A stretch of DNA of 64,000 nucleotides from Tumebacillus algifaecis (lineage in GTDB: Bacteria > Bacillota > Bacilli > Tumebacillales > Tumebacillaceae): contig NZ_CP022657.1 in the NCBI RefSeq assembly GCF_002243515.1, positions 1,417,001 to 1,481,000 of the forward strand. The letters are read 5' to 3'. Shown in pieces: positions 5,089 through 61,837 of this stretch; position 1 is the first letter of the stretch; each line of letters starts with the position of its first letter. Position numbers and translations under genes: made by a program. The notes beneath the pieces are model-generated. The model worked only from the letters and a program-made list of their open reading frames with translations, had not been told where the DNA came from and did not search any database.

Positions 5089-5091
5089 GAG

Positions 5092-9654: not shown

Positions 9655-9683
9655 GCGAGCGAGGAGCAGGGAGGAACGATCAG

Positions 9684-23123: not shown

Positions 23124-23164
23124 CTTGACGGTTGATCACTTCGATTGAAAGAGGGTGGTTTAAA

Positions 23165-28762: not shown

Positions 28763-31700
28763 GCCGGGTTTCGAAGTTTGCGATGTCAAAAGAGAAGCGA
28801 GCGCTACTCGACAAGATGCTGCAAGAGGAAGGAATTTCCGCCTCGGGAATCGCGCGCATCGAAAAGCGTTCGGACCAGCGTCCGGCACGCTTGTCGTCCA
28901 GCCAGCAGCGCTTGTGGTTTCTCGACAAGATGGAGCCGAACAGCAAGACGTATAACATGCCGTATCTGATCGAACTGCATGGCCCGCTCGATGTGGATCT
29001 GTTGCGTGATACCCTGCAGGAGATCAGCGAGCGCCATGAGATTCTGCGCACCTCTTTTGCTACACAGGACGGGGAGACGGTGCAGGTCGTCAACAGTAAG
29101 CAGGCTGTGACGATGCACGTGTTGCCGGTTCAACCGTCAGATGTTGGTCGCTTGGCGATGGCAGAGGCGCAAAGGTCGTTTTCGCTCACCGAGGGGCCGC
29201 TGCTGCGCACGGTGCTGTTGCAGACGGGGGAGGAAAAGCACACCCTTTTGCTCACCCTGCACCACATCGTTTTCGATGGCTGGTCGATGGGCGTTCTGCT
29301 GCGCGAACTGTCTGCGCTGTACGAAGCGTTTGCCAAAGGTGAGCCATCGCCGCTCGGCGTGTTGCCCTTGCAATATGGGGATTACGCCGAATGGCAGCAG
29401 GAGTGGCTGAAAGGCGCAGGGTACCAACAGCAGATCAACTACTGGAAGGAAACGCTCGCCGGTGCGCCGGTCGTGCTCGACCTGCCTGTCGATCGTCCCC
29501 GACCACTGCTGAAGACCGACCGTGGCGGCAACGTTGCCTTTTCGCTGTCAAATGAGCTGGCGAAGCGGTTAAAAGCCTGGAGTCAGCAGGAAGATGTCAC
29601 CCTGTTCATGACCTTGTTCGCCGCGTTTTCTGTGCTGCTCTCCCGCTATAGCGGACAGGAAGACCTGCTCATCGGAGCCCCGTTTGCCGGGAGAAGTCAG
29701 CGCGAGACGGAAGGGTTGCTCGGCTTTTTCGTCAACACCTTGGTCCTGCGTGCCAACTTGACTGGCGATCCGACGTTTTCCGAACTGGTGCGCCGCGTCA
29801 AGGAGACGACGACCGGAGCGATGTCCAATCAGGACCTGCCGTTTGACAAACTGGTCGAAGAATTGCAACCGATGCGCGATGCCAGTCGCAGTCCGCTGTT
29901 CCAAGTGATGTTTAACTTCCTTGACTCGCCGCATGAGGAACTGCACTTTGGCGGCCTTACCCTGACGCACAGTGAAGTGCTGAACGGCACAGCCAAATTT
30001 GACCTGACGCTTTATGTCGAAGATGGGGCGGACGGCATCAAAGGAAACTTCGAATACAACCTCGACCTGTTCGAAGCGGCGACGGTGGAGCGGATGGCCG
30101 GACATTTGCAAACGCTTTTGGAAGGCATCGTCATCCGTCCGGAGCTGTCGGTGGTCGAACTGCCGATGCTGACCGATGCGGAGTTGGAGCAGGAGTTGCA
30201 GGGGTGGAATGACACGAAGAGACCGTATCCGCAGGACCGTTGCGTCCACCAACTGGTGGAAGAACAGGCTGAAAAGCGGCCGGATGCGGTAGCGACTCTT
30301 TTTGACGGAACGGAATTGACCTATGCCCAACTGAATGCGCGGGCGAATCAACTCGCTCACCACCTGCGTCAACATGGCGTCAGACCTGATGCTCTCGTTG
30401 GTCTTTGCGTCGAGCGATCGCACGATCTGGTGATCGGGATGCTCGGTATTCTAAAAGCGGGAGGGGCCTATGTTCCACTCGATCCGGCTTACCCTGCCGA
30501 GCGTTTGGCGTTCATGCAGCGCGACACCGGGCTTTCTGTGATCGTAGCGCAAGCGCATCTGCTGGAGCGCTTGCCACAAAACGGCGTGCAGACGATCTGT
30601 CTTGACCGCGACCATGCCGCGATCGCGGCGGAGCGCACAGACAATTTGGCACCAGTGACCGACGCGGAACAGCTCGCCTACGTGCTGTATACATCCGGCT
30701 CGACCGGGGTGCCCAAAGGTGTGCTCGTCCCGCATCGCGCGATCAACCGCTTGGTCTGCAACACCGATTATGCGCAACTTGACGCAAGCGATGTGGTCGG
30801 GCAGGTGTCGAACTCTTCATTTGACGCGGCGACCTTTGAAATCTGGGGTGCGCTGGTCAATGGAGGCAAACTGGTCGGCGTGACCAAAGATGTGGCGCTG
30901 ACACCCAAAGAGTTTGCTGCGGAGCTAAAAGCGCAAGGGATCACGGCGATGTTTATGACGGCTGCGCTGTTCAATCAAATCGCAGCGGTGTTTCCCGACG
31001 CGTTTTCAGGCCTACGCCATCTACTCGTCGGCGGCGAAGCGCTCGACGCACGCTGGATTCGCGAAGTGATCATGCACGGAGCACCGCAACACTTGCTCAA
31101 CGGGTACGGCCCTACAGAGAGCACCACTTTCGCGGTCTGTCAGCAAGTGTACGACCTAGCGATCGATGTGGCGAACATCCCGATCGGCAAACCGATCGCC
31201 AACACGGTGGCCTACGTGCTGGACTCTCGATTACAGCCGCTTCCGGTCGGTGTGCCGGGCGAGTTGTACCTTGGCGGAGACGGGTTGGCACACGGCTATC
31301 TAAACCGTCCGGAACTGACCGCTGAGCGCTTTTTGCAGAACCCGTACGGAACAGGGCAGCTGTATAAAACGGGCGACCTTGTGCGCCGTTTGCCAGATGG
31401 GACTTTGGAGTACCTCGGCCGCCTCGACCATCAGGTCAAGGTGCGCGGGTTTCGGATCGAGCTCGGTGAAATCGAGCAAGCGCTCGCCGCACAGCCTGCG
31501 CTTCGCGAGGTGGTGGCCATCGTGCGCGAAGATGAGCCGGGCGATAAGCGTATCGTAGCGTACGTGGTGCCTGAGCAAAGCGGTGCTATCACGGCACAGG
31601 AACTGCGCGAACAACTGAAATCAAAGCTCCCCGAGTATATGCTGCCCTCGGCGATCGTCTTGCTCGATGCACTGCCGCTGACCGTCAATGGCAAGGTTGA

Positions 31701-32091
31701 TCGTCAAGCGCTGCCCCATCCGCAAGCGGCAAGAGGGAGCGACACAGACTATGTTGCACCACAAAACGAGACGGAAGCGATCGTGCTTGGGGTGTGGCAA
31801 GCGGTGCTACAAGTGGAGCGGATCAGCATCCATGATAATTTTTTTGATCTTGGTGGACATTCGCTCTTATTGATCAAGGTGCATGAAGGCATTCAGGATA
31901 AACTGCGGACTCAGTTTTCGATCGTTGAACTGTTCCGTCACACGACGGTCTATACGCTGACTCAATTTTTGACCTCTCAGCAAGCATCGGCAAAAACGGC
32001 AGGACAGGCGGAGGAATCGCAGGCGCGTGCGCTTTCCAAAAAAGATGTGATCAACCGCCGCAAGCAAGTATCAAAAGGCAGGGGGAAGTAA
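28759..32091 (+). CDS. Nonribosomal peptide synthetase module C-A-T (Ile/Val-like)
   Basis: An 1110-residue module: a helical N-terminus (KFAMSKEKRALLDKML), a C domain (about 36-470, HHIVFDGWS), an A domain (about 480-990; YTSGSTGVPKG, LNGYGPTEST, VNGKVDR) and a T domain (Ser in LGGHSLLLI near 1033). Specificity residues read about DAFFLGGTFK, between known Ile and Val codes, so a branched aliphatic acid is inferred. The C-terminus carries the basic tail KKDVINRRKQVSKGRGK, like the NRPSs ending at 5088 and 61833, and like them it is followed 3-4 bases later by a PKS starting at its KS domain. It overlaps the previous gene by 4 bases. Confidence 0.93.
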   Translation: MSRVSKFAMSKEKRALLDKMLQEEGISASGIARIEKRSDQRPARLSSSQQRLWFLDKMEPNSKTYNMPYLIELHGPLDVDLLRDTLQEISERHEILRTSFATQDGETVQVVNSKQAVTMHVLPVQPSDVGRLAMAEAQRSFSLTEGPLLRTVLLQTGEEKHTLLLTLHHIVFDGWSMGVLLRELSALYEAFAKGEPSPLGVLPLQYGDYAEWQQEWLKGAGYQQQINYWKETLAGAPVVLDLPVDRPRPLLKTDRGGNVAFSLSNELAKRLKAWSQQEDVTLFMTLFAAFSVLLSRYSGQEDLLIGAPFAGRSQRETEGLLGFFVNTLVLRANLTGDPTFSELVRRVKETTTGAMSNQDLPFDKLVEELQPMRDASRSPLFQVMFNFLDSPHEELHFGGLTLTHSEVLNGTAKFDLTLYVEDGADGIKGNFEYNLDLFEAATVERMAGHLQTLLEGIVIRPELSVVELPMLTDAELEQELQGWNDTKRPYPQDRCVHQLVEEQAEKRPDAVATLFDGTELTYAQLNARANQLAHHLRQHGVRPDALVGLCVERSHDLVIGMLGILKAGGAYVPLDPAYPAERLAFMQRDTGLSVIVAQAHLLERLPQNGVQTICLDRDHAAIAAERTDNLAPVTDAEQLAYVLYTSGSTGVPKGVLVPHRAINRLVCNTDYAQLDASDVVGQVSNSSFDAATFEIWGALVNGGKLVGVTKDVALTPKEFAAELKAQGITAMFMTAALFNQIAAVFPDAFSGLRHLLVGGEALDARWIREVIMHGAPQHLLNGYGPTESTTFAVCQQVYDLAIDVANIPIGKPIANTVAYVLDSRLQPLPVGVPGELYLGGDGLAHGYLNRPELTAERFLQNPYGTGQLYKTGDLVRRLPDGTLEYLGRLDHQVKVRGFRIELGEIEQALAAQPALREVVAIVREDEPGDKRIVAYVVPEQSGAITAQELREQLKSKLPEYMLPSAIVLLDALPLTVNGKVDRQALPHPQAARGSDTDYVAPQNETEAIVLGVWQAVLQVERISIHDNFFDLGGHSLLLIKVHEGIQDKLRTQFSIVELFRHTTVYTLTQFLTSQQASAKTAGQAEESQARALSKKDVINRRKQVSKGRGK

Positions 32092-32094
32092 GAG

Positions 32095-35000
32095 ATGAGC
32101 CACGAGAAGGAAAACCAACTGCTCGAAGGAATTGCCATCGTCGGAATGTCCGGCCGTTTTCCGGGTAGCAAGAACATCGCTGAATTTTGGGCAAATCTGC
32201 AAAATGGTATGGAAACGATCTCCGAGTTTACCGAAGAAGAGCTGAAAGCGGCAGGTGTCGATGCCGACCTGTTGCAGGACCCACAGTATGTGAAACGCGG
32301 TGGTCTGCTCCAAGACCGCGAGTTGTTTGACGCTCATTTTTTTGATTACACCGCCAAAGAAGCGGAAGTCACCGACCCCTCCCACCGCCTGTTTCTCGAA
32401 ACGGCATGGGAAGCGCTGGAGACGGCAGGCTACGATGCGGAACAGTATCCGGGTCGCATCGGGGTGTATGGCGGCGTCGGGGCGAACAGCTTCTCCTATC
32501 ACCTAAGCGCCAATCGGGCGCTGTTTGAGCAGATCGGGGCGCTGCAGGCGACGCTTGCGACCTCCTATGATTTTCTGGCGACGCGCGTCGCGTATAAGCT
32601 CAATCTGACCGGGCCTGCGCTGACCGTGCAGACGGCGTGCTCCACATCGCTTGTCGCCGTGCATCAAGCCTGTCAGCAACTGCTGATGCACGAATGCGAC
32701 ATGGCGTTGGCAGGGGGTGTGGCGATCAAGCTGTTGGAGGCGGAAGGCTATCTCTATCAGGAAGGTAGCATCCTCTCTCCCGACGGGCATTGCCGCGCCT
32801 TTGATGAACAGGCACAAGGCACGATCGGCGGCGACGGCGTGGGCGTGGTGGTGCTGAAACGACTGGAAGATGCGCTAGAGGATGGCGATCAGATCTACGC
32901 GGTGATTCGCGGTTCGGCGGTCAACAACGACGGCGCGGAAAAAATCGGCTTTACCGCACCGAGCGTGGACGGGCAGGCGCAGGTGATCCTCGACGCGCTG
33001 GCCGTGGCCGGGGTGGAAGCGGACACGATCTCGTACATCGAGACGCATGGCACAGCAACCCCGCTCGGCGATCCGATTGAAGTGGCGGCGCTGACCAACG
33101 CCTATCGGGAAAGCACCGACCGCGTCGGCTATTGCGCCTTGGGCTCGTTGAAAACGAACATGGGACATCTTGACGCGGCGGCAGGTGTAGCAGGGCTGAT
33201 CAAAGCCACCTTGATGCTGAAACATGCGCAGTTTGTTCCCAGCTTACATTTTGAAAAAGCAAATCCGAAACTCGGCTTAGAATCATCACCGTTCTATGTC
33301 AACACCGAGCTGAAAGCGTGGCCGTCGGGCCGTGAGCCGCGCCGGGCGGGCGTCTCGTCCTTTGGCATGGGGGGTACGAATGCCCATGTGGTGCTGGAAG
33401 AGGCGCCTGTAGCTGAGGTGGGTTCCGAATCGCTGCGCAACTGGCAACTGCTCGTCTTGTCGGCCAAAACGAGTACGGCGTTGACCAGCGCTACGGAAAA
33501 TGTAGCAGCACACCTGCGCGAAAATCGACAGGGCGAGTTAGCAGACGTAGCCTATACGCTACAAACGGGCCGTCGGGCATTTGACCATCGGCGGATCGTG
33601 GCGGTGCAAAGCCATGAGGATGCGGTTGCGGCGCTGACTGCGCTGGACGGAAAGCGAGTCTTCACCGCAGAATCGGAAACGCGAGACCGTTCGGTCGTCT
33701 TCCTCTTCCCAGGACAAGGCGCACAAAATGTGAACATGGGGCTGGACTTGTACCGCGAGGAGCCTGTGTTTCGCGAACAGGTGGACCTCTGTTCCGAACA
33801 GCTCAAGGCCCACCTCGGCTTCGATTTGCGCGATGTGCTCTACCCGGCAGTCGACAAGCAGGAAGAGGCACAAGAACGATTGCGTCAGACCTCGATCACC
33901 CAGCCCGCTCTGTTCGTCATCGAGTATGCACTGGCCAAGCTTTGGATTGAACTGGGCGTACAACCGAGCGCGATGCTCGGCCACTCGATCGGCGAGTATG
34001 TGGCGGCCGTCTTCGCAGGCGTGATGTCGCTGGAGGACGCGCTGAAACTGGTAGCTGTGCGTGGCAAGCTGATGCAGTCCTTGCCGGAGGGCACGATGCT
34101 GGCTGTACCGCTGGCCGAAGCGGAGGTGCTACCGTTGCTCGGCGCCGGATTGTCTCTGGCGGCGGTGAACGGGCCGCGCGCCTGCGTGGTCGCTGGAACC
34201 ACGGAAGCGGTGGAACAACTGGAGGCGCAACTGCAAGCGCAGGAAGTGGAGTGCAGACGTTTGGTGACCTCTCATGCGTTCCACTCGGAGATGATGGACC
34301 CGATTCTCGCGGCGTTTGCGGAAGCGGTGCAAGGGGTGGAACTGCACGCGCCGCAACTGGCCTACCTCTCCAACGTGTCGGGCAGTTGGATCACGGCGGA
34401 AGAAGCGACCGACCCGAACTACTGGGTCAAGCATCTGCGCGGTACGGTGCGCTTTGCCGACAATGTGCACGAACTGCTTCAAGAGCCGGGCCGTCTGTTC
34501 CTCGAAGTTGGCCCTGGTCGCTCGCTGATCGGCCTGACCCGCCAACAGGTGGCGGCGGAAGGGGCGCAGGAAGTACTACTTTCCTCGATGCGTCACCGCG
34601 ATGAGCAGGTGTCTGATGCGGCCTTCTTGCTGACCTCGCTCGGCCGGATCTGGCTGTCCGGGCTGAAGCTCGATTGGACACGGCTCTACCAAGCAGAAAC
34701 GCGCCGCCGCGTGGCGTTGCCGACCTACCCGTTCGAGCGCAAGCGCTACTGGCTGGAGCGCAAGGCGGGCACCACCGCCAAAATCCAGCGCAAGAAAGCG
34801 GACATCGCCGACTGGTTCTATGTGCCAACGTGGAAAAAGTCGCTCCTGATCGCAGACGATGCGACAGATGCAAAACATTGGCTTTTGTTCCTCGACGAGA
34901 CGGGTGCTGGCGCAGAGCTGGCCAAGCGCCTGACTACAGCCGGACACCACGTGGTGACGGTCGCAGCCGGGGCGTCTTTTGCCAAAACGGAGGCAGACGC

Positions 35001-36717
35001 CTACACCGTGCGTCCGGCGGAGCGCGAAGATTACAGCCTGCTGTTGGATGACTTGGCGACTGCTGAGCGTCTGCCGCAGAAGATCGTTCATCTGTTCGGC
35101 GTGACCGACGCGGCGGACGATTACGAGGAGACGCAGGGCAAAGGCTTCTACTCGCTGCTCGGCCTGGCGCAGGCGCTCGGCGAGCAGACCCTGGCAGACG
35201 GTGTGGAGATCGGCGTGATCACCAACAACCTCCAAGACGTCCTGAACGACATCGTCACCGCTCCGGCCCGTGCCACCGCGCTCGGCCTGTGCAAAGTCAT
35301 CCCGCAAGAGCTGACCGGCGTCTCCGCCCGCGCGATCGACATCGACAGCGTGACCGATGCTGCCCTGCTGATCGCCGAGCTCTCTGCAGAAAGCGTGGAC
35401 ACGGTGGTGGCCTATCGCCGTAGCCTGCGCTTCGTGCAGACGTATGAAGCAGTTCGCTTGCCGCAGCGTAGCGCATCTGTCCACGCGAACGCGGTGGTCC
35501 TGATCACCGGTGCCAATACGCCAAACGGCCAGGCGGCAGCAGCGTATTTCGAACAACACCAAAATGCGAAGCTGGTGCTCATCACGCACGACGCGGAAGC
35601 AACCGACCCGCACGCTGTCACCGTGCACGTGCAGTCCTCCGACGCGGCAGCCGTTTCCGTGCAATCGCCAACGTCGAACTCGATTGAGATCACCGTACAG
35701 CCGCAGTCGGCAACCGAGGCCGGCTCGCAAACGAAAACGGCAGACAGGCTGTACTTCACCGCCAATATCACCGACCTTGCACAGATCCAATCGATTGTGC
35801 AGCGAGCGACGGAGCAGTTCGGCGAGATCACCGGCGTGATCCATGCGGAAGACCCGCGCGGCACGGGGATGTTGCAGCTGAAAACCCAAGAGATGACCGC
35901 CGCCGTCCTCGACCCGAAAGTAAAAGGTGCTCTGGTGCTGGAGCGGGCCCTCGCCGATGCGAAGCTGGACTTCTTCCTGCTCTACAACTCCACCGTCGCC
36001 GCTACCGGTGGCTTCGGCCAGTCTGACAACTGTGCTGCGGGCATGTTTTTGGACGCTTTTGCCGCCGCCAGAGCTCACACGCACACGGTCAATTGGGGCA
36101 TCTGGAAATGGGATGACTGGCAAGAACAGCAGCTCACAGGTGTCGCTGAACTGCACCAGCAGTTGCGTGAGGCACGCCTTGCGTTTGGCATCACGGAAGC
36201 GGAAGGATGGGAAGCTTTGACCCGCATTCTCAGCTTCGGCCTGCCGCAGACGGTCGTCTCCACCCAGGATTTCCACGACGTGCTGCAAGCGTCGCAAAGC
36301 TTCACCGCTGCGGGCTTCCTCGAAGCGCTGGAAGAGTCCCGCCAAGCCGCTTTGGCAGGCGCGCAGTCCAATTCCAACTATGTCGCTCCGCGCAATGAAC
36401 TGGAAGAGACGATCGCCGGATTCTGGGCCGAACTGTTCGGGATCAACCGCCCATCGATCCAAGCTGACTTCTTTGACTTAGGCGGCAATTCGCTGGTCGC
36501 GATCCAACTGGTCACACGGATGCGCAAACAGTTTGGCATGGATTTCCCGATCAATACGATCTTTGAATCACCTACCATTGAAGCGCTCGCCCAGATGGTG
36601 GAAAGCAACCAACTCGGTCAGGAAAAATTGGATGCGCTTGAGGAACTCCTGAAGCAGATCGAAGGCATGTCTGACGATGACCTGCTCGCCAAAATGCTGG
36701 AAGAAGAGACGAAGTGA
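32095..36717 (+). CDS. Type I polyketide synthase, KS-AT-KR(inactive?)-ACP
   Basis: 1540 residues, close in layout to the PKS at 5092. The KS has Cys182 in TACSTS and His in ETHGTAT and NMGHLDAAAG. The AT has Ser631 in GHSIGEY, with HAFH at 727 indicating malonyl-CoA. The KR (about 900-1365) begins DWFYVPTWK. The ACP Ser is in LGGNSLVAI near 1466. The KR catalytic segment reads GGFGQSDNCAAG: the Tyr is Asn1312 and the following Asn is Gly1316, while the Ser (in YNST) and the upstream Lys (DPKVKG) remain. Reduction is therefore unlikely, and the unit added should stay a beta-ketone unless modified in trans. The KR also has a loose Thr/Ser/Ala-rich insertion around 1175-1210. The acidic C-terminal helix (LEELLKQIEGMSDDDLLAKM) probably docks to the monooxygenase gene product next door. 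Confidence 0.94.
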   Translation: MSHEKENQLLEGIAIVGMSGRFPGSKNIAEFWANLQNGMETISEFTEEELKAAGVDADLLQDPQYVKRGGLLQDRELFDAHFFDYTAKEAEVTDPSHRLFLETAWEALETAGYDAEQYPGRIGVYGGVGANSFSYHLSANRALFEQIGALQATLATSYDFLATRVAYKLNLTGPALTVQTACSTSLVAVHQACQQLLMHECDMALAGGVAIKLLEAEGYLYQEGSILSPDGHCRAFDEQAQGTIGGDGVGVVVLKRLEDALEDGDQIYAVIRGSAVNNDGAEKIGFTAPSVDGQAQVILDALAVAGVEADTISYIETHGTATPLGDPIEVAALTNAYRESTDRVGYCALGSLKTNMGHLDAAAGVAGLIKATLMLKHAQFVPSLHFEKANPKLGLESSPFYVNTELKAWPSGREPRRAGVSSFGMGGTNAHVVLEEAPVAEVGSESLRNWQLLVLSAKTSTALTSATENVAAHLRENRQGELADVAYTLQTGRRAFDHRRIVAVQSHEDAVAALTALDGKRVFTAESETRDRSVVFLFPGQGAQNVNMGLDLYREEPVFREQVDLCSEQLKAHLGFDLRDVLYPAVDKQEEAQERLRQTSITQPALFVIEYALAKLWIELGVQPSAMLGHSIGEYVAAVFAGVMSLEDALKLVAVRGKLMQSLPEGTMLAVPLAEAEVLPLLGAGLSLAAVNGPRACVVAGTTEAVEQLEAQLQAQEVECRRLVTSHAFHSEMMDPILAAFAEAVQGVELHAPQLAYLSNVSGSWITAEEATDPNYWVKHLRGTVRFADNVHELLQEPGRLFLEVGPGRSLIGLTRQQVAAEGAQEVLLSSMRHRDEQVSDAAFLLTSLGRIWLSGLKLDWTRLYQAETRRRVALPTYPFERKRYWLERKAGTTAKIQRKKADIADWFYVPTWKKSLLIADDATDAKHWLLFLDETGAGAELAKRLTTAGHHVVTVAAGASFAKTEADAYTVRPAEREDYSLLLDDLATAERLPQKIVHLFGVTDAADDYEETQGKGFYSLLGLAQALGEQTLADGVEIGVITNNLQDVLNDIVTAPARATALGLCKVIPQELTGVSARAIDIDSVTDAALLIAELSAESVDTVVAYRRSLRFVQTYEAVRLPQRSASVHANAVVLITGANTPNGQAAAAYFEQHQNAKLVLITHDAEATDPHAVTVHVQSSDAAAVSVQSPTSNSIEITVQPQSATEAGSQTKTADRLYFTANITDLAQIQSIVQRATEQFGEITGVIHAEDPRGTGMLQLKTQEMTAAVLDPKVKGALVLERALADAKLDFFLLYNSTVAATGGFGQSDNCAAGMFLDAFAAARAHTHTVNWGIWKWDDWQEQQLTGVAELHQQLREARLAFGITEAEGWEALTRILSFGLPQTVVSTQDFHDVLQASQSFTAAGFLEALEESRQAALAGAQSNSNYVAPRNELEETIAGFWAELFGINRPSIQADFFDLGGNSLVAIQLVTRMRKQFGMDFPINTIFESPTIEALAQMVESNQLGQEKLDALEELLKQIEGMSDDDLLAKMLEEETK

Positions 36718-36731
36718 GGAGTGAAGTCCCG

Positions 36732-37991
36732 ATGAACGATCTGAACAAACGACTGGCCGCACTGTCACCGGAACAGCGCGCCCTGCTGGAAAAGCAGTTG
36801 AAAAAGCAAGGTCTCGACAACCTCGTCCAAAAAGAGGAAAGCGGCGAAATCGCCGTCACGATGCCGAAAGCGGACAGCGGGTCGCCAACTTTCAAAGGCG
36901 CTGGTCTGGAAAAGAAAGAGCGCGACCCGAACAAAGGGATGGACTTTTCCCTCTACTTCTTCTCAGGCGATGGCAGCACCGCGTCCCGCGACAAGTACCA
37001 GTTGCTCATCGACTGTGCCAAGCACGGCGACGAACACGGCTATGCGGCGGTCTGGACGCCGGAGCGCCATTTTCAAGATTTCGGTGGCCTGTACCCGAAT
37101 CCGGCCGTTCTATCGGCTGCGCTTGCGATGGTCACCGAAAAGATCGAACTTCGCGCTGGCTCGGTCGCGATTCCGCTCCATCACCCGATTCGCGTAGCTG
37201 AAGAATGGTCGGTCGTCGATAACCTCTCCGGAGGACGCATCGCGATCTGTGCCGCGTCCGGCTGGCATCCGAACGATTTCATCCTCTCTCCGAAGCCGAA
37301 CATGGATTACTACACCAATCGCCGACAGGAGATGATCGACTCGCTTGGAATCATCCAGCGTCTGTGGCAAGGCGAGACGGTCACCATGACCGGCATCGAT
37401 GGAGAAGCGGTGTCAACCCGCATGCTACCACGACCGATCCAGCCACAACTCGAGTTCTGGTTCGCCTCCCAGGGCGCGCCTGAAACGCTGATCAAGGCGG
37501 GCGAGATGGGCGGTCACATCCTGACCGGACTGGTCAACCAACCACTGCACGAATTGGAGCAAAAGATCAAGCTGTACCGTGACGCTCGCGCCAAAGCGGG
37601 GCATGATCCGGAAAAAGGGAAGGTGGCCGTCATGCTGCACACTTTCCTGGGCACCGATAACAACACGGTCAAAGAGCAGGCGAGACAGCCCTTGACCAGC
37701 TACCTGCGCACCTTCCTGCGCCAACAGGACAATTTTAAAAGCGACTTCGACCTCGCTACGGAAGCGGATAAAGATGCACTGGTCTCGTTTGCTTATGAAC
37801 GATACTTCGAGGAAAGCACCTTGCTCGGCACGGTAGACAAATGCGAAACGCTGATCAACAACCTGATCGCCATCGGCGTGACCGAAGTCGCCTGCCTCGT
37901 AGACTTTGGTCTGGCACCGGATACGGTGTTGGAAGGTCTCACCCATCTGAATGAATTGCAAGAACGGTATCGTGTCAAACAAACGGTATAG
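36732..37991 (+). CDS. Luciferase-like (LLM) flavin monooxygenase with assembly-line N-terminus
   Basis: 419 residues from the ATG at 36732, preceded by GAGGAG; this start gives MNDLNKRLAALSPEQRALLE, the same helical N-terminus as the NRPS partners. A GTG 18 bases earlier is possible. From about 65 the protein is an FMN/F420-type luciferase fold of the natural-product (MupA/Atu3640-like) class: GMDFSLYFFSGDG, AAVWTPERHF, RAGSVAIPLHHPIRVAEEW, then SGGRIAICAASGWHPNDF. Such domains are usually found inside or next to NRPS/PKS modules and are thought to oxidise the carrier-bound chain, commonly by hydroxylation. Here it is free-standing between a PKS with a dead KR and a Thr-loading NRPS, so the likely substrate is the beta-ketoacyl-ACP. 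The reaction is inferred, not shown. Confidence 0.9.
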   Translation: MNDLNKRLAALSPEQRALLEKQLKKQGLDNLVQKEESGEIAVTMPKADSGSPTFKGAGLEKKERDPNKGMDFSLYFFSGDGSTASRDKYQLLIDCAKHGDEHGYAAVWTPERHFQDFGGLYPNPAVLSAALAMVTEKIELRAGSVAIPLHHPIRVAEEWSVVDNLSGGRIAICAASGWHPNDFILSPKPNMDYYTNRRQEMIDSLGIIQRLWQGETVTMTGIDGEAVSTRMLPRPIQPQLEFWFASQGAPETLIKAGEMGGHILTGLVNQPLHELEQKIKLYRDARAKAGHDPEKGKVAVMLHTFLGTDNNTVKEQARQPLTSYLRTFLRQQDNFKSDFDLATEADKDALVSFAYERYFEESTLLGTVDKCETLINNLIAIGVTEVACLVDFGLAPDTVLEGLTHLNELQERYRVKQTV

Positions 37992-38002: not shown

Positions 38003-41000
38003 ATGAAGGATTTACAGGAACGCATCAAATCGTTGTCGCCAGAACAGCGCAAAGTATTTGAAGCCCAACTGAAAAAAATGGGCATCGAAATCCCGCAAGA
38101 GCAAAAAGAGGAAGACACGATCGCACCGCGCGGCCACAACAATCCGAGCCCGTTGTCCTATGACCAGGAGCGCCTATGGTTCTTTCAGCAGATGGAGCCG
38201 GACAAATCGACGTACAACGTTTATACAGCATTGCGCTTCAAAGGAGTCTTGCATATCGACTTGCTGGAGCGTGCAGTGAATGGGATCGTGGCTCGACATG
38301 AGGCATGGCGCACGATTTTCCGGATGCAAGCGGACGGTAGTGTCGTACAGATTGTCCAGCCGAACGTGGAGATCAAAGCGGAGCTGATCGACTTGCGTCA
38401 TTTGCAGGAATCGGAGCGTGAAGAGGCGCTGGAGACAGAGAAATTCCGCGAATCGAATCGGTTGTTCGATCTGGAAAACGGACCTCTTTTACGCGTGATG
38501 CTCGTTCGGATGAGTGATGAAGACACCGTCTTCATCTTCTCGATTCACCATCTGGTGATGGACCGCGTAACGTTTTCGATGTTTTTCCACGAATTGAAAG
38601 TCAATTACACCGCGTACTTAAACGGTGAAGAACCGCAGTATGCTCCACTTCAATTGCATTATGCCGACTTTGCGGAATATCAGCGCAACACTTTACAGGG
38701 CGCTGAGATGGAAAAACAGCTTTCCTACTGGCGCAAACATCTGGAAGACTCTTCGCTCATCCTGAATCTGCCGACCGATTATCCGCGTTTAGCCGATCAG
38801 GATTACAAAGGGGCGCGACACCACTTTGAGATTCCGCAGAGCCTGTTTCAAGACCTGAAAGCGTTGGCCCGCCAAGAAAACGCGACCGCAAACATGATCA
38901 CGATGGCAGCCTATAAAGTCCTGCTCTACCGCTATACTGGACAGCCAGACATCATCATTGGTACCCCGCTTGCCAATCGTGACAAAGTGGAGATGGAAAA
39001 CATCTTTGGATACTTCCTGACCACAATCCCGCTGCGCACCGATCTGGCAGGTGATTTGCCGTTTCGCGAAGTACTTCGCCGCGTGAAAAATACTTCATTT
39101 GGCGCGTATGATTACAAAAACACACCGTTTGGCCTGATACTTGATGACATCAAGCCGGAGCGCGACGCTTCACGCAACCCGATCTATCAAGCGGTGTTCG
39201 TGTATGTTGACGTTCCAGAAGAAAAGTTTACTTTGCCTGGCATTGAAGTTGACGGCGAATGGATCGATAACCAGACGGCCAAATACGACCTCTCCCTCGC
39301 CATCGTGGAAAATGACGACGGCCTGAGCTTGTTCGAATATCGTGCCGATCTGTTCGAGCATGAAACGATTGTGCGCATGGCTGAGCATTACATGAATCTG
39401 CTTTACGCCATCGTGGACAACCCAGACAAGAGCATTTCCGAATTGGCGATGTTGACCGATGTGGAACATACTAAGCTGTTTAAAGAATGGAACGTGAAAC
39501 AAGAACTCTCGACACAGCCAACTCTGCATCAATTGTTTGAAGAGCAAGCTGCGAAACGCCCACATGCGGTCGCGGTCACGGAAGAAAATACAATCCTGAC
39601 TTACGCAGAACTGAATGCTCGCGCGAACCGATTGGCACATCGCCTGCAAAAGTTAGGCGTCGGCCCGGAGTCGTTGGTCGGCCTTTGCGTCGAGCGTTCG
39701 ACCGATATGGTCGTTGCAGTGCTCGGGATTTTGAAAGCAGGAGGTTCCTACGTTCCGCTCGATCCGACCTACCCGCAAGACCGTCTTGCATTTATGTTGG
39801 AAGACTCGGCTGTGTCTGTGTTAGTCACACAATCGAATCTACTGACGAACCTGCCTGCTCATCGTGCGCAAGTGGTCACCCTTGACCACGACGCTGCTGG
39901 GATCGCTGAAGAAAGCGCAGACAATTTGGAAAGCAGAGCAACGAGAGATACGCTTGCGTATGTCATTTACACCTCTGGCTCGACAGGGACACCAAAAGGA
40001 GTTCTCGTTCCGCACGGCAATGTGGTGCGCTTATTCAGCGAGACAGAGCATTGGTTCCATTTTCACGAACGGGACGTCTGGACGCTGTTCCATTCTTACG
40101 CGTTCGACTTCTCGGTCTGGGAACTGTGGGGGCCGCTGCTTTCCGGCGGTAAGTTGGTGATCGTGCCGTACCACGTCACCCGTGAACCGGACGCCTTCTA
40201 TGACCTGCTCGTCCGCGAAGGAGTGACCGTGCTTAACCAAACGCCGTCCGCTTTCCGACAATTGATGCTGGCTGAAGAGCGCGTTGGACTGTCGCCACAG
40301 CTCGCATTGCGTTATGTGATTTTCGGTGGAGAAGCATTGGAAATTCGATCGCTTGGCCCATGGTTCGACCGACATGGTGATTCGAAACCGCAACTGATCA
40401 ACATGTATGGCATCACAGAAACGACCGTTCATGTCACCTATCGTCCGCTCTCTGGTGATGACTTGGCCTCTAAAGCATCTGTGATCGGCCGTCCGATCCG
40501 CGACTTGCAAGTATATCTGTTTGACAATTACGGACAGCCGGTACCGATCGGCGTTCCCGGAGAAATCTGCGTTGGCGGTGCAGGTCTTGCGCGTGGATAT
40601 TTGAATCGCCAAGAACTAACGGAGGATCGCTTTATCCAAAAAGAGATCAACGGTGTTTCCGAACGTCTTTATCGCTCCGGTGATTTGGGTCGTTACTTGA
40701 GCAATGGTGATCTGGAATACCTTGGTCGTATTGACCAGCAGGTAAAAATTCGCGGGTTCCGTATTGAACTTGGTGAGATTGAAGCGGCGGTTGTAGAACA
40801 TCCGAGTGTGCGATCTGCGGTAGTCATCGACCATGAAGATGAGCGGGGTCACAAGCGGCTCATCGGGTATGTGATTCCGTATGCGAGCGGTGCAGTCTCT
40901 TCACAAGAACTTCGACATTATTTGAAAGAGCGTCTGCCTGAATATATGGTGCCGGCGTTGTTCGTCAGCGTGGAAACGATTCCGCTCACCGCCAATGGCA

Positions 41001-42736
41001 AGGTCGATCGCAAAAAGCTTCCAGCACCGCAAGCGATGGTTTTGGAAGATGCGGTGATGCCGACCAATGATGTGGAAGAAGTGTTGGCGAAGATTTATGC
41101 CGAAGTTCTACGTTTGGAGCATGTCGGGACTCACGACAATTTCTTTGATCTTGGCGGAGACTCGATCCTTTCGATTCAAATCATCACTCGCGCTGCCCAA
41201 GAGGGTCTGCGCCTGACGCCAAAGGACATGTTCAAATACCAGACCATTGCTGAACTTGCCATCGTTGCTGGCAAGGCGGCAATTGTCAAGAGCGAGCAAG
41301 GTCTCGTAACTGGCGAGGCAGCGCTGACCCCGAGTCAAGAGTGGTTCTTTGAGCAAAACCTGCTTGAGCAACATTACTGGAATATGCCGTTCTTACTTGA
41401 GGTGCGCCAGCGCGTCGATCTCGATCTATTACAAGCAGCATTTGGGGAGCTGATGAAACATCATGATGCTCTGCGCATGCGATTTGTCAAAGGCCAAAAT
41501 GGCTGGTCACAATTCAATGCCGATCTGAGTGATGACGTGCCGTTCGTAGTAATCGATTTAAGCCATGTGCCAAGCGATCTGCAGGAAGCGGCATTGGAAG
41601 AAGCGGCGCTCGAACTGCAAAGCGGTCTGAACTTAACTGACGGTCCGCTTGTACAATTTGCCTATTTCAATCTGGGACCGGAAAAAACGGGACGCCTATT
41701 ATTCGCGATGCACCACTTGGTGATCGACGGTGTCTCATGGCGAATTTTGATCGAAGATTTGCGCACTGCATACATGCAATTGCAAAACGGACAAAAAGTA
41801 AAATTGCCGCCGAAGACTACCTCGTACCGCTATTGGGCTAACCGTTTGAACGAGTATGCGCAAACTGCGACGGTTTTGAGCGAAGCAGATTATTGGCTCG
41901 AAGCAAGATGGCATCAGGTGAATGCACTGCCTGTGGATCAGAACGGTGAGAACATCGAATCATCTGTTGACATCGTCAGCGTCTCGCTCCCGAAAACGGA
42001 GACACAGCAATTGCTGTATGATGTGCCGAAAGCGTACAACACGCAGATCAATGACGTTTTGCTCACCGCGCTTGCCAAATCGATTGCCAACTGGACACAA
42101 CAGCGTACACTGCTTGTCAACATTGAGGGTCACGGCCGCGAAGACCTGATGGAGGAGATCGATCACTCCCGCACGGTCGGTTTCTTCACCTCAATCTATC
42201 CGGTGCTGCTCGACATAGGATTCGACAAACGCTTAGGTGAGCAGATAAAAGCGGTCAAAGAACAGCTGCGCGCGATCCCGAACAAAGGGGTCGGTTACGG
42301 CATTCTGCGTCATCTTTGCCAGGTGGGTTCGGTGGCGGAGCGCCTGAAGTCATTGCCGCAAGCGGACATCTCTTTCAACTATTTGGGCCAGTTTGATCAA
42401 CAGGTATCTGGTGATGCATGGTTCGGATTTGCCAGCGAATCGATCGGTTCCCCGCGCGCTCAAAGCGGCAGCCGCTCTCACAGCTTGCAAGTGTCAGCGA
42501 CTGTGCTAAGCGGTGAGCTCGAAGTGGTCTGGGAGTTTTCCAAGAACCTCCACAAGCGCGAGACGATCGAGCTCATCGCTCAGAACTTTCTTGCCGAATT
42601 GCAAGCTTTGATCGAGCACTGCCTCGACCCGAACGCTGGAGGTTTCACTCCGTCCGATTTCCCAGAGGCGAATGTCAACCAGCAAGACCTCGACAAGTTT
42701 TTAAGCTCGTTCGGCAAAGTGGGGGGCAAGGAATGA
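38003..42736 (+). CDS. Nonribosomal peptide synthetase C-A-T-E, threonine module
   Basis: 1577 residues: a helical N-terminus (MKDLQERIKSLSPEQRK), a C domain (about 45-480) whose motif is H182-H-L-V-M-D-R188, an A domain (about 500-1010), a T domain (LGGDSILSI near 1054) and an epimerisation domain (about 1105-1545; HHLVIDGVSWR, EGHGRE, RTVGFFTS, NYLGQFD). The A-domain residues read DFWNIGMVHK, the standard threonine code, with the YGITETTVH segment typical of Thr domains. With the E domain, a D-configured (allo-)threonyl residue is predicted. HHxxxDR is shared only with the free C protein at 9684; both act just after a PKS. It starts 11 bases after the monooxygenase stop, behind AGGAGG, and the next gene overlaps by ATGA. 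Confidence 0.94.
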   Translation: MKDLQERIKSLSPEQRKVFEAQLKKMGIEIPQEQKEEDTIAPRGHNNPSPLSYDQERLWFFQQMEPDKSTYNVYTALRFKGVLHIDLLERAVNGIVARHEAWRTIFRMQADGSVVQIVQPNVEIKAELIDLRHLQESEREEALETEKFRESNRLFDLENGPLLRVMLVRMSDEDTVFIFSIHHLVMDRVTFSMFFHELKVNYTAYLNGEEPQYAPLQLHYADFAEYQRNTLQGAEMEKQLSYWRKHLEDSSLILNLPTDYPRLADQDYKGARHHFEIPQSLFQDLKALARQENATANMITMAAYKVLLYRYTGQPDIIIGTPLANRDKVEMENIFGYFLTTIPLRTDLAGDLPFREVLRRVKNTSFGAYDYKNTPFGLILDDIKPERDASRNPIYQAVFVYVDVPEEKFTLPGIEVDGEWIDNQTAKYDLSLAIVENDDGLSLFEYRADLFEHETIVRMAEHYMNLLYAIVDNPDKSISELAMLTDVEHTKLFKEWNVKQELSTQPTLHQLFEEQAAKRPHAVAVTEENTILTYAELNARANRLAHRLQKLGVGPESLVGLCVERSTDMVVAVLGILKAGGSYVPLDPTYPQDRLAFMLEDSAVSVLVTQSNLLTNLPAHRAQVVTLDHDAAGIAEESADNLESRATRDTLAYVIYTSGSTGTPKGVLVPHGNVVRLFSETEHWFHFHERDVWTLFHSYAFDFSVWELWGPLLSGGKLVIVPYHVTREPDAFYDLLVREGVTVLNQTPSAFRQLMLAEERVGLSPQLALRYVIFGGEALEIRSLGPWFDRHGDSKPQLINMYGITETTVHVTYRPLSGDDLASKASVIGRPIRDLQVYLFDNYGQPVPIGVPGEICVGGAGLARGYLNRQELTEDRFIQKEINGVSERLYRSGDLGRYLSNGDLEYLGRIDQQVKIRGFRIELGEIEAAVVEHPSVRSAVVIDHEDERGHKRLIGYVIPYASGAVSSQELRHYLKERLPEYMVPALFVSVETIPLTANGKVDRKKLPAPQAMVLEDAVMPTNDVEEVLAKIYAEVLRLEHVGTHDNFFDLGGDSILSIQIITRAAQEGLRLTPKDMFKYQTIAELAIVAGKAAIVKSEQGLVTGEAALTPSQEWFFEQNLLEQHYWNMPFLLEVRQRVDLDLLQAAFGELMKHHDALRMRFVKGQNGWSQFNADLSDDVPFVVIDLSHVPSDLQEAALEEAALELQSGLNLTDGPLVQFAYFNLGPEKTGRLLFAMHHLVIDGVSWRILIEDLRTAYMQLQNGQKVKLPPKTTSYRYWANRLNEYAQTATVLSEADYWLEARWHQVNALPVDQNGENIESSVDIVSVSLPKTETQQLLYDVPKAYNTQINDVLLTALAKSIANWTQQRTLLVNIEGHGREDLMEEIDHSRTVGFFTSIYPVLLDIGFDKRLGEQIKAVKEQLRAIPNKGVGYGILRHLCQVGSVAERLKSLPQADISFNYLGQFDQQVSGDAWFGFASESIGSPRAQSGSRSHSLQVSATVLSGELEVVWEFSKNLHKRETIELIAQNFLAELQALIEHCLDPNAGGFTPSDFPEANVNQQDLDKFLSSFGKVGGKE

Positions 42737-45700
42737 AACGCGAAAACATCGAGTCTCTGTACGAGCTGACCCCCCTGCAGCACGGCATGTTATTCCATTC
42801 GTTGTATGCCCCCGATTCGGGGGTGTACGCAGTACAGATCAACTTTACACTGGAGGGCTCATTTGATCAAAGAACGTTTATCCGCGCCTTTCAAAAAGTG
42901 ATCGAACGCCATCCGATTCTGCGAACCGCTTTTTATTGGGAAAATTTAGATAAACCACTGCAAGTGGTAGGCAAAGAAGTGGAACTTCCCTTTCAATACT
43001 TGGATTGGCGCGGGCTTTCGCAGGAAGAGAAGCGGCAGAAAGTGATCTCCATTCAGGAGCAAGACCGTCTCCAACCATTCATTTTCACCGAAGCCCCTGT
43101 CATGCGAATCACCTTGATGCAACTGTCTGAGCAGATTCACAGTTTGAGCTGGACTTTTCATCACATACTGCTCGATGGCTGGTCGCTGCAACTGGTGTTG
43201 CAGGAGCTGTGGCAACTCTACGAAGCGTACCAAGACGGGCAGGAGTTGAGCCTGCCCCCAAGTCAGCCGTTTCGCAAGTATTTGGCTTGGCTTCAGCGGC
43301 AGGATATGGGGCAGGCCGAAGCGTACTGGCGCACGGCATTACAAGGGTTTGTGGAGCCGACTCCGCTGCCGCTCGACTTTGGCAAACGCCAATTGTTCGA
43401 AGGGGAAGCGCGGACGGCGAGCCTCGATCTCAATCTGTTGCCCGCTGTTCATGAAAAACTGCAACATGCCGCCCGAACGTTTCAGGTGACGCTCAACACC
43501 CTGTTGCAAGGAATCTGGGCACTTTACTTGAGCCGGGCATCAGGTGAGAGCGATGTCGTCTTTGGCTATACTGTTTCGGGACGTCCTGGCGATCTGCCCG
43601 GTGTGGACATGATTGCTGGGATGTTGATCAACTCATTGCCGGTGCGGGTGAGCATCGATCCTGACGCTTGGCTTGGCACGTGGCTGAAAGACTTGCAAAC
43701 TGAACAGTTGGAAGCACGTCAGTATGATCACAGTCCGCTGATCAGCGTGCAGGAGTGGAGCGATGTACCGCGTGGTACACGTTTGTTTGAAACACTGTTC
43801 GTCTTTGAAAACTTTTTGGACGAAGAGGGACAGACAGAGATCAAACGCTCCTTGAAGATCACAGACGATCCGACAGATCACCCAAACTCCTTTCCGCTGA
43901 CACTGACGGGCATCCCGACTCGGGAATTCATCCTGCGCATGCAGTATGATACGACTCGTTACGATCAAGCGACAGTGCAGCGCATCCTCGACCATCTGTC
44001 GGTGATGTTGAACACCGTTGCCGAGCGTCCGGAAGTAAAACTGTTTGACATTCCGCTCTTGACCGACGCAGAGCGAGAAGAAGTGGTAGTTTCTTGGAAC
44101 GCGACAGAGATCGATTTTCCTCGTGACCGTTTTTTGCATCAATATGTAGAAGAACATGCTGAGCACTGTGCCGAGGCTCTAGCGATCATCTCGCCGGAAA
44201 AAACATGGACGTATGGTGAACTGAATGCATATGCCAACCGCCTTGCCCACTTTTTACTCGCCCATGGTGTAGGACCGGAACGTACGGTTGGCGTTTTGAT
44301 GGAGCGTTCACCGGAGCTGGTCGCCGCTTATCTCGCGGTATGGAAGTGCGGGGCCGCTTTCCTGATGATCGACCCGAAAACGCCGGGCGAACGAGTACGT
44401 TTTATGCTCGATGATGCTGACACCATGCTGTTGTTGACGCAAGCAAGCCTGCACGAACTGGTCGATTGGTCGGGCGGACCTGTTTGGCAACTCGATGCTG
44501 ACGCGGATCTTTTGGCCAAGGAAAGCACAGAAAATTTGAAATCTGTATCGGAGCGGGGCCATCTCGCCTGTGTGCTCTACACCTCAGGTTCGACCGGAAC
44601 ACCAAAAGGAGTGGAGTTGGAACAGGCAGGCATTCTAAATTACATGCATTGGTGTGCCCGGTTGACGAGACTGACTTCAGCAGATCGCACCACGCACATT
44701 TCTGGGCTAGGCTTCGACGGGACGCTGTTAGAGCTGCTCCCAGCCTTGTGCGCTGGATGTACGATCATTCAACCCGATGCGGAAGTGCGCTATTCTCCGC
44801 AAAAGCTGCATGCTTGGATTTTGGAGCATGAAGTGAACGTAGCTTATGCGACGACCGCACTGACCGAATCGTTGATGGCGCTGCCATGGCCGAAGGATAC
44901 GAAGTTTCGGATCCAACTGACTGGCGGCGAGGCGATGCGCACATATCCTTCAGTCGATTTGCCGTTTACGGTGATCAACGGGTACGGCCCGACCGAAGCG
45001 ACCATCTACACCACATTTTTCGAGGTGCCGACGACACCTGCAGGCGACCATCTGCCGTCGATCGGACGACCGCTGGCGAACATGAAAGTTTTCGTGCTCG
45101 ACGAGCAACAAAATCCCCTGCCCGTCGGGATGCCTGGCGAACTGTATGCGGGGGGAATCGGGGTCGGTCGCGGCTATCTGAATCGTCCCGAATTGACGGC
45201 GGAGAAGTTTGTGGACACTTCCTATGGGCGCTTGTACAAGACGGGTGACAAAGTGCGCTGGCTGCCCGATGGAAATTTGGATTATATCGGACGAATCGAC
45301 CAGTTGGTGAAGATTCGCGGATTCCGCATCGAGCTTGGTGAGATCGAGGCTGCTCTGCTCAAGCATCCAAAGGTCAAAGACGCCGCTGTGCTGGTGCGAG
45401 AACAGCAGATCATCGCGTATGTGGCAGGAAGCCAGGTCCCGTCCGCACAGCAACTGCGCCTCTTTTTGCAAGGAAATCTGCCGGAGTTTATGCTCCCGTC
45501 CTATTTTGTGGCGTTGGATGCCCTGCCGCTCAATGCGAATGGCAAGATCGATCGCCGAGCCTTGCCTGCGCCGACCCGTGAACATGCGGCCGGGGCGGAA
45601 GAAACGGTGTTGGCGCGAACGGAGACTGAGCGCAGTCTGGTCGAGATTTGGCAAAAAGTGTTGCGCCTGGATGACGTGGGCGTGACCGACAATTTCTTTG

Positions 45701-48700
45701 CGCTCGGTGGACACTCTTTGTTGGCGACACAAGTGATGGGACAGATTGCGGCTGTGTGCGAGGTGGAACTTCCACTGCGAGCGCTGTTCGAATCACCGAC
45801 GATCGAAGCGTTGGCGCGGTTGATCGAGGACAAGCAGAACGTCCCATCCGAAGTGAGCGCTATTCTGCCGATCGACCGCAGCGAACGCCTGCCTTTGTCG
45901 TTTGCGCAGGAGCGCCTGTGGTTCTTGGAGCAGTTCAACTCCAATTCGGCCGCCTATAATGTGCCGATCGCGTTGCGGATGACAGGACGTTTGAACGTTG
46001 AGGCATTGAAACAAAGTTTCAATGAAATCATGTCGCGCCATGAAGTGCTGCGCACGTCGTTTACGGCGGTGGACGGACAGCCGGAACAAGTGATTGCAGC
46101 CAAACTGGAGATGCCGTTTACCTTGCTTGACCTCTCGCAGATGCAAACAGATGAGGCGGAGTCGCAAGCGGCGCAGGAGGCGGCGAAAGAAGTCGAGACC
46201 CCGTTCGAGTTGACAGATGGCGCTTTGGTGCGAGCTACGCTTTTGCGGATCGCAGAAGAAGATCATGTGCTCCTGCTGACGATGCATCACATCATTTCGG
46301 ATGGCTGGTCGATGGGAATTTTGATCGATGAACTTTCGAAACTCTATGCTGCGTTTGCACAAGGGACCCCGTCATCGCTCGCTCCTCTGCCGATTCAATA
46401 TGCTGATTTTGCGCACTGGCAGCGTGAATGGTTCCAAGGGGAATGGCTGGAAGAGCAGATCGCCTATTGGAAGAAAATTCTAAACGGCGCGCCATCTGTC
46501 CTGCCCTTGCCGACCGACAAGCCGCGCCCTGCGGTGCAGACCTATCGGGGGGCCAACCGAGAGATCGTGCTTTCTGCTGAGCTGACCGAGCGGTTGAAGG
46601 TGCTGAGTCAACAGGAAGGCGCGACGCTGTTTATGGCCTTGCTGGCGGCGTTTAACGTGCTGATGGCGCGTTACTCAGGTCAGGAGGACGTCGTGGTCGG
46701 AACGCCGATCGCGGGCCGCACCCGTCCGGAGACGCATGATTTGATCGGCTTTTTCGTCAATACGCTCGCCTTGCGCACCGATCTGTCGCGCGATCCGAAT
46801 TTCCGAGAGTTGCTGGCCCGAGTTCGCGAAGTGACGCTGGGCGCATACGCACATCAGGACCTGCCGTTTGAGCGGTTGGTACAGGAAGTGCGTCCTGAGC
46901 GCGATATGAGTCATGCGCCGTTGTTTCAAGTGATGTTCGTACTACAGAATGCACCGATGGATGATTTCAATTTGACTGGGCTTACGCTGCATGATTTTCC
47001 GGTCGAGTGGGGCACGTCAAAGTTTGACCTCACCGTTTCGGTGCAAGAAGAACATGGCAGCTTGCGCGGCTTTGTCGAGTATAATACCGACCTGTTCGAA
47101 GGCGAGACGATCGATCGCCTGATCGAGAATTTCCGCCTGCTATTGGCAGGCTTGGCTGACGATCCGGAGTGTTCGGTATATGTGGTGCCGATGGTGACGG
47201 ACGAAGAGCGACGTTTGCTACTGGAAGAGCGATCAGGCAACTCGGTGCCATTTGATGAGCAGGCGTGTGGGCATCATCTCTTTGAGCGGCAAGTGGAACG
47301 GACGCCCGATCTGATCGCCGTGGAGTTTGGCGAAGTGAGTCTGACCTACCGCGAACTGAACGAGCGCGCCAACCGCCTTGCCCATCGTCTGCAAAAGCTT
47401 GGTGTGGGGCCTGATCAATTGGTCGCCCTCGCGGTAGAACGTGGGCCGGAGATGATCGTCGGTCTGCTCGGCGTATTGAAAGCGGGTGGCGCGTATGTGC
47501 CGATCGAACCGGAATATCCGGCCGAGCGGATCGCCTATCAACTTGAAGATGGCAAGGTGTCCGTTTTGCTGACACAGTCGCACTTGGCCGCTGGCCTGCC
47601 GACGGAAGGGGTAGAGCTGATCTGCCTCGATGCGGAAACGTTTCTGGATGAGCCAGCTGGCAATCCAGAAAGCGCTGTGTCGGCGCATCATTTGGCTTAT
47701 ATCATCTATACGTCCGGCTCCACCGGAAAACCAAAAGGCGTGTTGATCGAACATCGTAGCTTGGTCAATTTCACCGAAATGTACATCCGCACGTTCGATG
47801 TGCAGACAGGGTCGCGATCGTTCCAGTTTTCCTCGCTCTCTTTCGATGCGTCCGTGATGGATATTTTTCCAACGCTCGCTGCGGGAGCGACCGTGGTGTT
47901 GGTGAAACGGGAAGAGTTGCTGCCAGGTCCGCAGTTGCAAAAGCTGATGCGGGAAAAACGCGTCAATCGCATGTTTGCAACGCCTTCGATGATGATGCAG
48001 CTGCCAAGCGAGGATTTACCCGATCTGCACACGGTGCTCATCGGCGGTGAGGCTGTGTCGAAGGAAGTGGTGCAGCGGTGGAAGCAACCGGGCAGGAAGG
48101 TCTATAACGTATATGGCCCAACCGAAACGACAGTTATATCAACAGGCGAGGAATATGACGGTGAGAGCGTACCACCGATCGGCGGGCCGCTGTCAAATGT
48201 GCGTTTGTACGTACTGGACGCCAAGATGCAGCCCGTGCCGATCGGTGTGCCAGGTGAGCTGTATATCGGCGGGGCCGGTGTCGCGCGCGGGTATTTGAAT
48301 CGCTCCGAGCTGACGGCAGAAAAGTTCGTGGAAACTGCATATGGTCGCCTGTACAGAACGGGTGATGCGGTGCGCTGGCTGGCGAGTGGCAAACTGGAGT
48401 ATTACGGTCGCATCGACTTGCAGGTGAAGATTCGTGGATTCCGCATCGAGCTTGGTGAGATCGAAGCGGTGTTGCGCCAACATCCAGCCGTGCAAGATGC
48501 TGCTGTTCTGGCCGTGCAGGACGAAACGGGGGATCGGCAACTTGTCGCGTATGCGGCGGTCGGGACGGCTGAATCTCCTGCTCCGGCAGAGTTGCGTGCC
48601 CATTTGAAAGCCGCTTTACCTGAGTTTATGGTGCCAGGGCTGTACGTGATGATGGATGCACTGCCACTGACGATCAACCGCAAAGTGGACCGCGCCGCGC

Positions 48701-61833: not shown

Positions 61834-61837
61834 GCAG

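Follow-up and report, generated by a model that had tools for sequence, protein, structure and literature searches.

How a free tailoring enzyme picks one carrier of an assembly line, and then alternates there with the next synthetase, is an open question even for MupA. The window analysed here, a stretch of 64,000 nucleotides from Tumebacillus algifaecis whose features discussed below all lie on the forward strand, poses this question through a free-standing oxygenase gene (36732-37991) set between a PKS and an NRPS module. From the sequence comparisons set out here, we think it probable that this oxygenase is an in-trans tailoring subunit of the PKS-NRPS line, which would dock on the PKS tail, alpha-hydroxylate the beta-ketoacyl-ACP and then hand over to the NRPS.

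The oxygenase and its assembly line

The initial annotation described the product of 36732-37991 as a free-standing luciferase-like monooxygenase (LLM), and profile searches confirm this, placing it in the FMN-dependent MupA/Atu3671 family. It scores 458.6 bits against TIGR04020, well inside the family (curated cut-off 244.45), is also matched by PF00296 in the Pfam scan, and has PuwE (6ket, E 7.7e-105) as its nearest solved structure. In an alignment of 28 rows that includes the window's own (5 distant rows of 33 were excluded), it keeps every column conserved in at least 90% of the rows, with no deviations. Based on its family and conserved residues, we infer that it is an FMNH2-dependent oxygenase. 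An alternative GTG start lies at 36714. The ATG at 36732 is to be preferred, because the T. avium ortholog (92% identical) begins at the equivalent ATG and does not overlap its PKS, and because an AGGAG stands at 36717-36721, 10 bases 5' of the ATG. A second LLM, 55% identical, lies just outside the window (window-equivalent position 66424) in cluster C, a FAAL lipopeptide cluster with the same gene order.

The gene belongs to cluster B, which runs A-PCP-C-A-PCP / C-A-PCP / PKS / LLM / C-A-PCP-E / four modules and TE. The domain scan places the first NRPS subunit at 23132-28762 and the C-A-PCP subunit that should feed the PKS at 28759-32091, followed by the KS-AT-KR-ACP PKS at 32095-36717. Behind the LLM come the C-A-PCP-E module at 38003-42736 and the NRPS with four C-A-PCP modules and TE at 42733-56049. 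The PKS domains match Pfam and retain the KS Cys/His/His, the AT motifs GHSIGE and HAFH and the ACP Ser; HAFH we take to be the malonyl signature. Its KR domain (35494-36108) is inactive: Asn (codon 36028-36030) stands where the catalytic Tyr should be, and the nucleotide motif has degenerated. The A-domain code of 38003-42736 is DFWNIGMVHK, which we read as Thr. These two results bear out the original placement of the LLM between a PKS with a dead KR and a Thr module. A motif script extracted codes for only part of the A domains, the first subunit included; we assume that DALxLGGTFK and DAFxLGGTFK stand for Val or another branched residue, and DAWQFGLIDK for Gln. No named product of the cluster was found among the Tumebacillus papers listed. 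The Pfam scan finds no carrier domain in the LLM ORF; the chain must therefore pass from the PKS ACP.

Two further clusters in the window offer comparison. Cluster A (139-14509), like cluster D (locus L089), has a KR-dead PKS (5092-9654 in the window, by domain scan and KR motif) and no LLM; the place of the LLM is taken by a stand-alone C domain with the N-terminal element described below (9684-11162, motif HHLITDR). A C-A-PCP protein with the same element follows at 11159-14509. The stand-alone C domains 9684-11162 and 7763-9205 of L089 have no A-PCP partner, and may modify the beta-keto chain instead of condensing. Cluster C begins at 56492-64000 with FAAL-ACP-C-A / A-PCP / KS-AT. Its FAAL-ACP-C-A and A-PCP ORFs (56492-61833) are split in the middle of an A domain (profile positions 2-233, then 235-384) and their orthologs in loci L047 and L048 are single ORFs; the split looks like a frameshift or sequencing error.

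The N-terminal element and its distribution

The LLM opens with a docking-like element of about 30 residues (36732-36821), MNDLNKRLAALSPEQRALLEKQLKKQGLDN. Searching the organism's own genome with the LLM also matched the N-termini of ORF 11159 (61% over 31 aa, E 1.4e-4), ORF 38003 (46% over 41 aa, E 3.3e-4) and ORF 9684 (58% over 31 aa, E 9.3e-4). An HMM built solely from ten LLM N-termini was run on 292 ORFs of the window and the fetched loci. Its hits besides the ten LLMs were 13 N-termini of NRPS or C-domain proteins (E 2.2e-13 to 0.0027), among them 38003-38089 of the Thr module; all 13 stand behind PKS, LLM or helix-bearing C genes, and no other ORF fell below E 0.7. In the window and fetched loci the core pattern is found in 13/52 C-first ORFs and 10/16 LLM-first ORFs. 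All 12 Bacilli LLMs directly behind a PKS carry the element (the ten from the ORF set and two from T. avium, masked there by longer antisense ORFs), as against none of the six other free-standing LLMs. The initial annotation was thus right that this N-terminus is shared with NRPS and C-domain proteins. Its claim that the segment is helical stands as a low-confidence prediction: the structure predicted for the LLM is of low quality (pLDDT 37.5), and in it the N-terminus forms two short helices at residues 4-9 and 13-25.

A genome-wide profile of the element (A4) gave 14 matches in the own genome at E ≤0.01. Seven are strong (E <1e-13) and come from the subunits that follow the genome's four KR-dead PKSs (LLM, NRPSs and C proteins); they are themselves rows of A4, which makes them strong by construction. 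The remaining seven, independent and weaker, belong to NRPSs elsewhere in the genome and start 8 to 61 residues past a stop codon, so that they sit at or near ORF starts. For five of these NRPSs the preceding subunit has a C-terminal carrier domain and an acidic tail, though one less long than those of the PKSs; for the other two it does not. The element therefore marks subunit starts without being limited to PKS junctions; the oddity is its presence on an oxygenase.

Two other descriptions of the element were considered. Specificity for junctions behind PKSs was rejected on account of the weaker form on the seven further NRPSs. A generic linker before C domains became less plausible when the core was found in 0/36 internal carrier-to-C linkers.

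At E ≤1e-60, TIGR04020 matched the own genome alone among 398 sampled across the phylum, 5 of the 7 genomes of the family and 17 of 398 genomes of the class, where scoring covered only each genome's best candidates. We examined all 26 matches of the class survey outside the own genome. Some LLMs stand alone between a KS-AT-KR-ACP subunit and a C-A protein, others are inserted into A domains, and the rest have different surroundings. The PKS/LLM/C-A order occurs in 12 Bacilli rows, the two from T. avium included, which fall into four cluster types: B, C (with a similar cluster in genome G400) and two in family f162. On plasmids, 82 records match TIGR04020; among the matches listed, five loci (H1, H3, H4, H5 and H8) were chosen by N-terminal reach or cyanobacterial host, and one Pantoea, one Streptomyces and two cyanobacterial plasmids have a related order. 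The survey of other genomes proposed with the initial annotation has thus found the arrangement to recur.

The plasmid loci vary. The Pantoea stewartii locus (L067) reads KS-AT-ACP / LLM with a weak element match (0.006) / 429-aa protein / NRPS. The 429-aa protein (L067 13169-14458) opens with a similar element (LSPEL...), has a weak element HMM match of its own (E 0.021) and no Pfam match at E 1; it is perhaps another docked tailoring enzyme. Streptomyces sp. KN37 (L068, 11950-14598) encodes a natural element-LLM-C fusion (4.5e-6) behind a KR-less KS-AT-ACP. The cyanobacterial loci L070 and L071 have a PKS, an LLM without the element and a C protein with it; since the gene order is the same, the element is not always needed. 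In Nostoc (C052, locus L069) the LLM is embedded in an A domain.

A tree of 33 LLM domains, from which the element was excluded, puts the 12 rows labelled helix-bearing on one side of a branch (support 83/81; 84% of bootstrap trees). These rows include Pantoea and Streptomyces, whose branches are long and whose placement is unsure; the two helix-bearing T. avium LLMs are not in the tree. LLMs embedded in A domains (C-A-LLM-A-PCP), which belong to the same family as the window LLM but lie in cis inside the A domain, fall outside the helix-bearing group. A cross-phylum clade of helix-bearing LLMs is thus possible.

In the LLM-linked PKSs of Bacilli, the KR is dead in types B, C (with G400) and f162 type 1, and intact in f162 type 2 (L050, L052). 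A KR is absent from Pantoea and KN37; in L070 and L071 the catalytic Tyr is retained. A dead KR was rejected as a mark of the LLM: in clusters A and D the KR is dead and there is no LLM, and L050 and L052 have an LLM with an intact KR.

The proposed docking port

The candidate partner of the element is a two-helix acidic tail at the C-terminus of the PKS (36616-36711). AlphaFold2 modeling of PKS fragment 36385-36714 placed helices after the ACP at residues 78-92 and 97-109, the two-helix tail behind a carrier that three-helix (PAX-like) docking would use. Block pLDDT was 73-77 over residues 81-110, from a two-sequence alignment and five models with mean pLDDT from 67 to 40. A profile of ten PKS tails against 177,635 PDB sequences gave weak matches, with 6tdn best (E 0.006) and 6trp second (E 0.04); the window PKS tail alone again found 6tdn first (E 0.46). 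The PDB listing gives 6tdn as two beta-ketoacyl synthase pieces within one chain, and we take it to be an enacyloxin docking complex. 6TRP is described as the PAX three-helix docking complex, in which a two-helix C-terminal tail meets a single N-terminal helix through charged contacts (PMC9113145). The same source reports that PAX-like three-helix docking domains are also predicted on oxidoreductases. PAX differs in being a PCP/C junction, whereas the window has a PKS ACP junction and an N-element in which a PDB profile search detected no sequence match to the PAX docking domains.

The N-element profile found no known docking domain in the PDB, its best matches being non-significant single stretches of designed repeat proteins. 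Beta-hairpin docking domains with SLiM tails offer a precedent for one tail recruiting several partners, tailoring enzymes included (PMC9113145), but their fold differs and Pfam matched none in those window proteins that were scanned. In the LLM itself no Pfam match precedes the LLM domain at E 0.001, and at about 30 aa the element does not qualify as a beta-hairpin docking domain.

For segments picked by eye, net charge ran from -7 to -14 in nine PKS tails and from +2 to +5 in the N-elements; the tail of the NRPS 23132-28762 was at -4. Within a cluster, the LLM element matches the downstream element better than it does after swapping between clusters; 3 of 120 permutations score as high for five clusters and 19 of 720 for six. 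This pairing signal is modest, and the clusters are related.

Other junctions of these lines have features of their own. Between 23132-28762 and 28759-32091 in cluster B there is a similar yet distinct pair of acidic tail and N-element, MSKEKRALLDKML; this N-element is at noise level with the LLM element HMM, and the junction is possibly an orthogonal docking pair. NRPS subunits that stand before a PKS have basic C-terminal tails, for example RRKQVSKGRGK or RKQLLKDRRK (in 28759-32091 and 139-5088; loci L047, L048, L059-L061 and L089-L091), and most PKS N-termini in these loci are short, at about 7-17 residues. Basic tail and short N-terminus are perhaps a separate NRPS-to-PKS junction signal.

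The element might instead be no docking device at all. It could derive from C-domain proteins and serve for solubility or as a lead-in, with the LLM contacting the ACP directly as MupA can, a member of the family that has been seen in NMR contact with its ACPs (PMC10953402). The cyanobacterial LLMs that occupy the same place without the element speak for this reading, as does the weaker element that leads into the C domains of other NRPSs in the own genome. However, the element stands only at subunit starts and is missing from every internal linker surveyed, a C-domain lead-in has no obvious reason to be on an oxygenase, and most of the seven further junctions also lie behind a carrier-ended subunit with an acidic if shorter tail. 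We therefore consider a mere lead-in segment rather unlikely, and continue with docking as the favoured explanation.

In that favoured mechanism, to which the LLM family, the dead KR, the gene order, the shared element and the missing carrier domain contribute as features read from the sequence, the N-terminal helix of the LLM would dock on the acidic pair of helices that follows the PKS ACP. Supplied with FMNH2 by a reductase, the docked LLM would hydroxylate the alpha carbon of the unreduced beta-ketoacyl-ACP, as MupA does. It would then leave, and the next NRPS, with the same element, would take the same tail and condense the alpha-hydroxy-beta-keto chain with Thr. The earlier idea that the LLM visits the beta-ketoacyl-ACP in trans gains from the shared element, the acidic two-helix tail, the recurring order and the dead KR, and in this indirect form it stands.

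A docking-like helix common to an oxygenase and a condensing subunit looks new. In the accessible portions of open-licence papers retrieved by searches on LLMs, on docking domains and on helical docking with monooxygenases, we found no description of an LLM with a docking helix. The motif LSPEQR was absent from the docking-domain literature among the best 10 of 956 matches listed, as far as their excerpts go.

Chemistry at the beta-keto stage

The initial annotation expected oxygenation of a beta-keto intermediate to be unusual chemistry. This expectation finds no support, as alpha-hydroxylation is precedented. MupA alpha-hydroxylates an ACP-bound beta-ketothioester in vitro, acting only on that ACP-bound form and before reduction (PMC10953402). 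Like the window LLM as we propose it, MupA of mupirocin and OocM of oocydin are described as trans alpha-hydroxylases of a beta-ketoacyl-ACP at a subunit junction (PMC10953402). The settings differ: mupirocin has a trans-AT PKS followed by a non-elongating KS0, whereas the window has a cis-AT PKS and a C-A-PCP-E subunit next, with no KS0. According to PMC10953402, neither of two known docking motifs was found at the mupirocin ACP/KS0 junction, in contrast to the shared docking-like element here. The mupirocin KR reduces after hydroxylation; the window KR is dead.

The PuwE monooxygenase domain of puwainaphycin likewise lies between a PKS and an NRPS module, and the 2-hydroxy group is assigned to this Ox domain (PMC4219810). 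PuwE is fused with an aminotransferase in one protein; the window junction has neither that fusion nor an aminotransferase. Hydroxylating or chain-shortening roles on PKS-bound chains have been proposed for the LLMs of palmerolide, onnamide (OnnC), calyculin (CalD) and mandelalide (MndB) (PMC8739492); that paper mentions no docking helix, and the word 'docking' is absent from its text.

The expected unit would be a 4-amino-2-hydroxy-3-oxo acid, made from the amino acid of the 28759-32091 module and malonate. A KR-dead line would keep the ketone, giving an alpha-hydroxy-beta-keto-gamma-amino acid unit, and the KR-intact type would give a diol after the LLM step.

Alternative outcomes for the same intermediate can be weighed. 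Flavin peroxide chemistry permits a Baeyer-Villiger type insertion of oxygen, or cleavage of a C-C bond that shortens the chain, and such shortening has been reported for CalD and MndB (PMC8739492). The family namesake MupA nevertheless hydroxylates the alpha carbon (PMC10953402), and we regard insertion or cleavage in the window line as very unlikely. Chances are lower still that the LLM oxidises twice to an alpha,beta-diketo (vicinal tricarbonyl) unit, an electrophile of the protease-inhibitor type. Because the KR is dead and the module has no other reductase domain, the alpha carbon would still be activated after the first hydroxylation; the ketide also follows an amino acid, as it does in statine-like inhibitors. 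However, no sequence feature separates single from double oxidation, and the literature sampled on vicinal tricarbonyls and biosynthetic gene clusters yielded only work apparently on cispentacin. A different substrate, or a passenger role in the cluster, as the LLM-free KR-dead PKSs of clusters A and D might hint, is highly improbable for the LLM, since placement and element are conserved across genera and, in a few loci, phyla, and the conserved residues are retained. Single alpha-hydroxylation thus remains our preferred reading.

The C domain that would receive the chain has a distinctive motif. HHxxxDR replaces the usual HHxxxDG in the first C domain after a KR-dead PKS (10/10 rows), and Arg occurs at this position in 0/59 other readable C domains. 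As many of the rows are orthologs, independent events are few. Behind KR-intact PKSs the first C domain has DG (2/2), and FAAL-fed C domains have HHxxxDF (7/7); among 60 other C domains, 48 have DG, one A and one N, and 10 have no readable motif. The HHxxxDR proteins are 38003-42736 (HHLVMDR) and 9684-11162 in the window and those of loci L009, L046, L059-L061 and L089-L093; the T. avium row L039 also reads HHLVMDR and lies outside the count of ten. Five stand-alone C domains fetched for resemblance, a set biased by the search, likewise have DR behind KR-dead PKSs. At the Arg position the second C protein of cluster A has N in the window and H in L092 and L093, and the KR-less lines have H (Pantoea), W (KN37, a divergent motif read by eye) and Y (L094). 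This motif in C domains behind KR-dead PKSs, and the possible cross-phylum LLM clade, also look new.

A wider proposal can be put forward only tentatively, and we hold it to be doubtful as a whole: the PKS tail would be a time-shared port, used by the oxygenase and then by the NRPS through the same helix, and together with the HHxxxDR C domain would make up a portable module for introducing unreduced, alpha-oxidised beta-keto units (alpha-hydroxy-beta-keto, even vicinal tricarbonyl) into peptides of several phyla. Both visitors appear to carry the same tag, so that deleting or exchanging about 30 residues could put to the test how they choose and share one carrier. Were the tag portable, it would help to direct alpha-hydroxylation in engineered lines, and the C-domain motif could let genome readers recognise unreduced beta-keto units.
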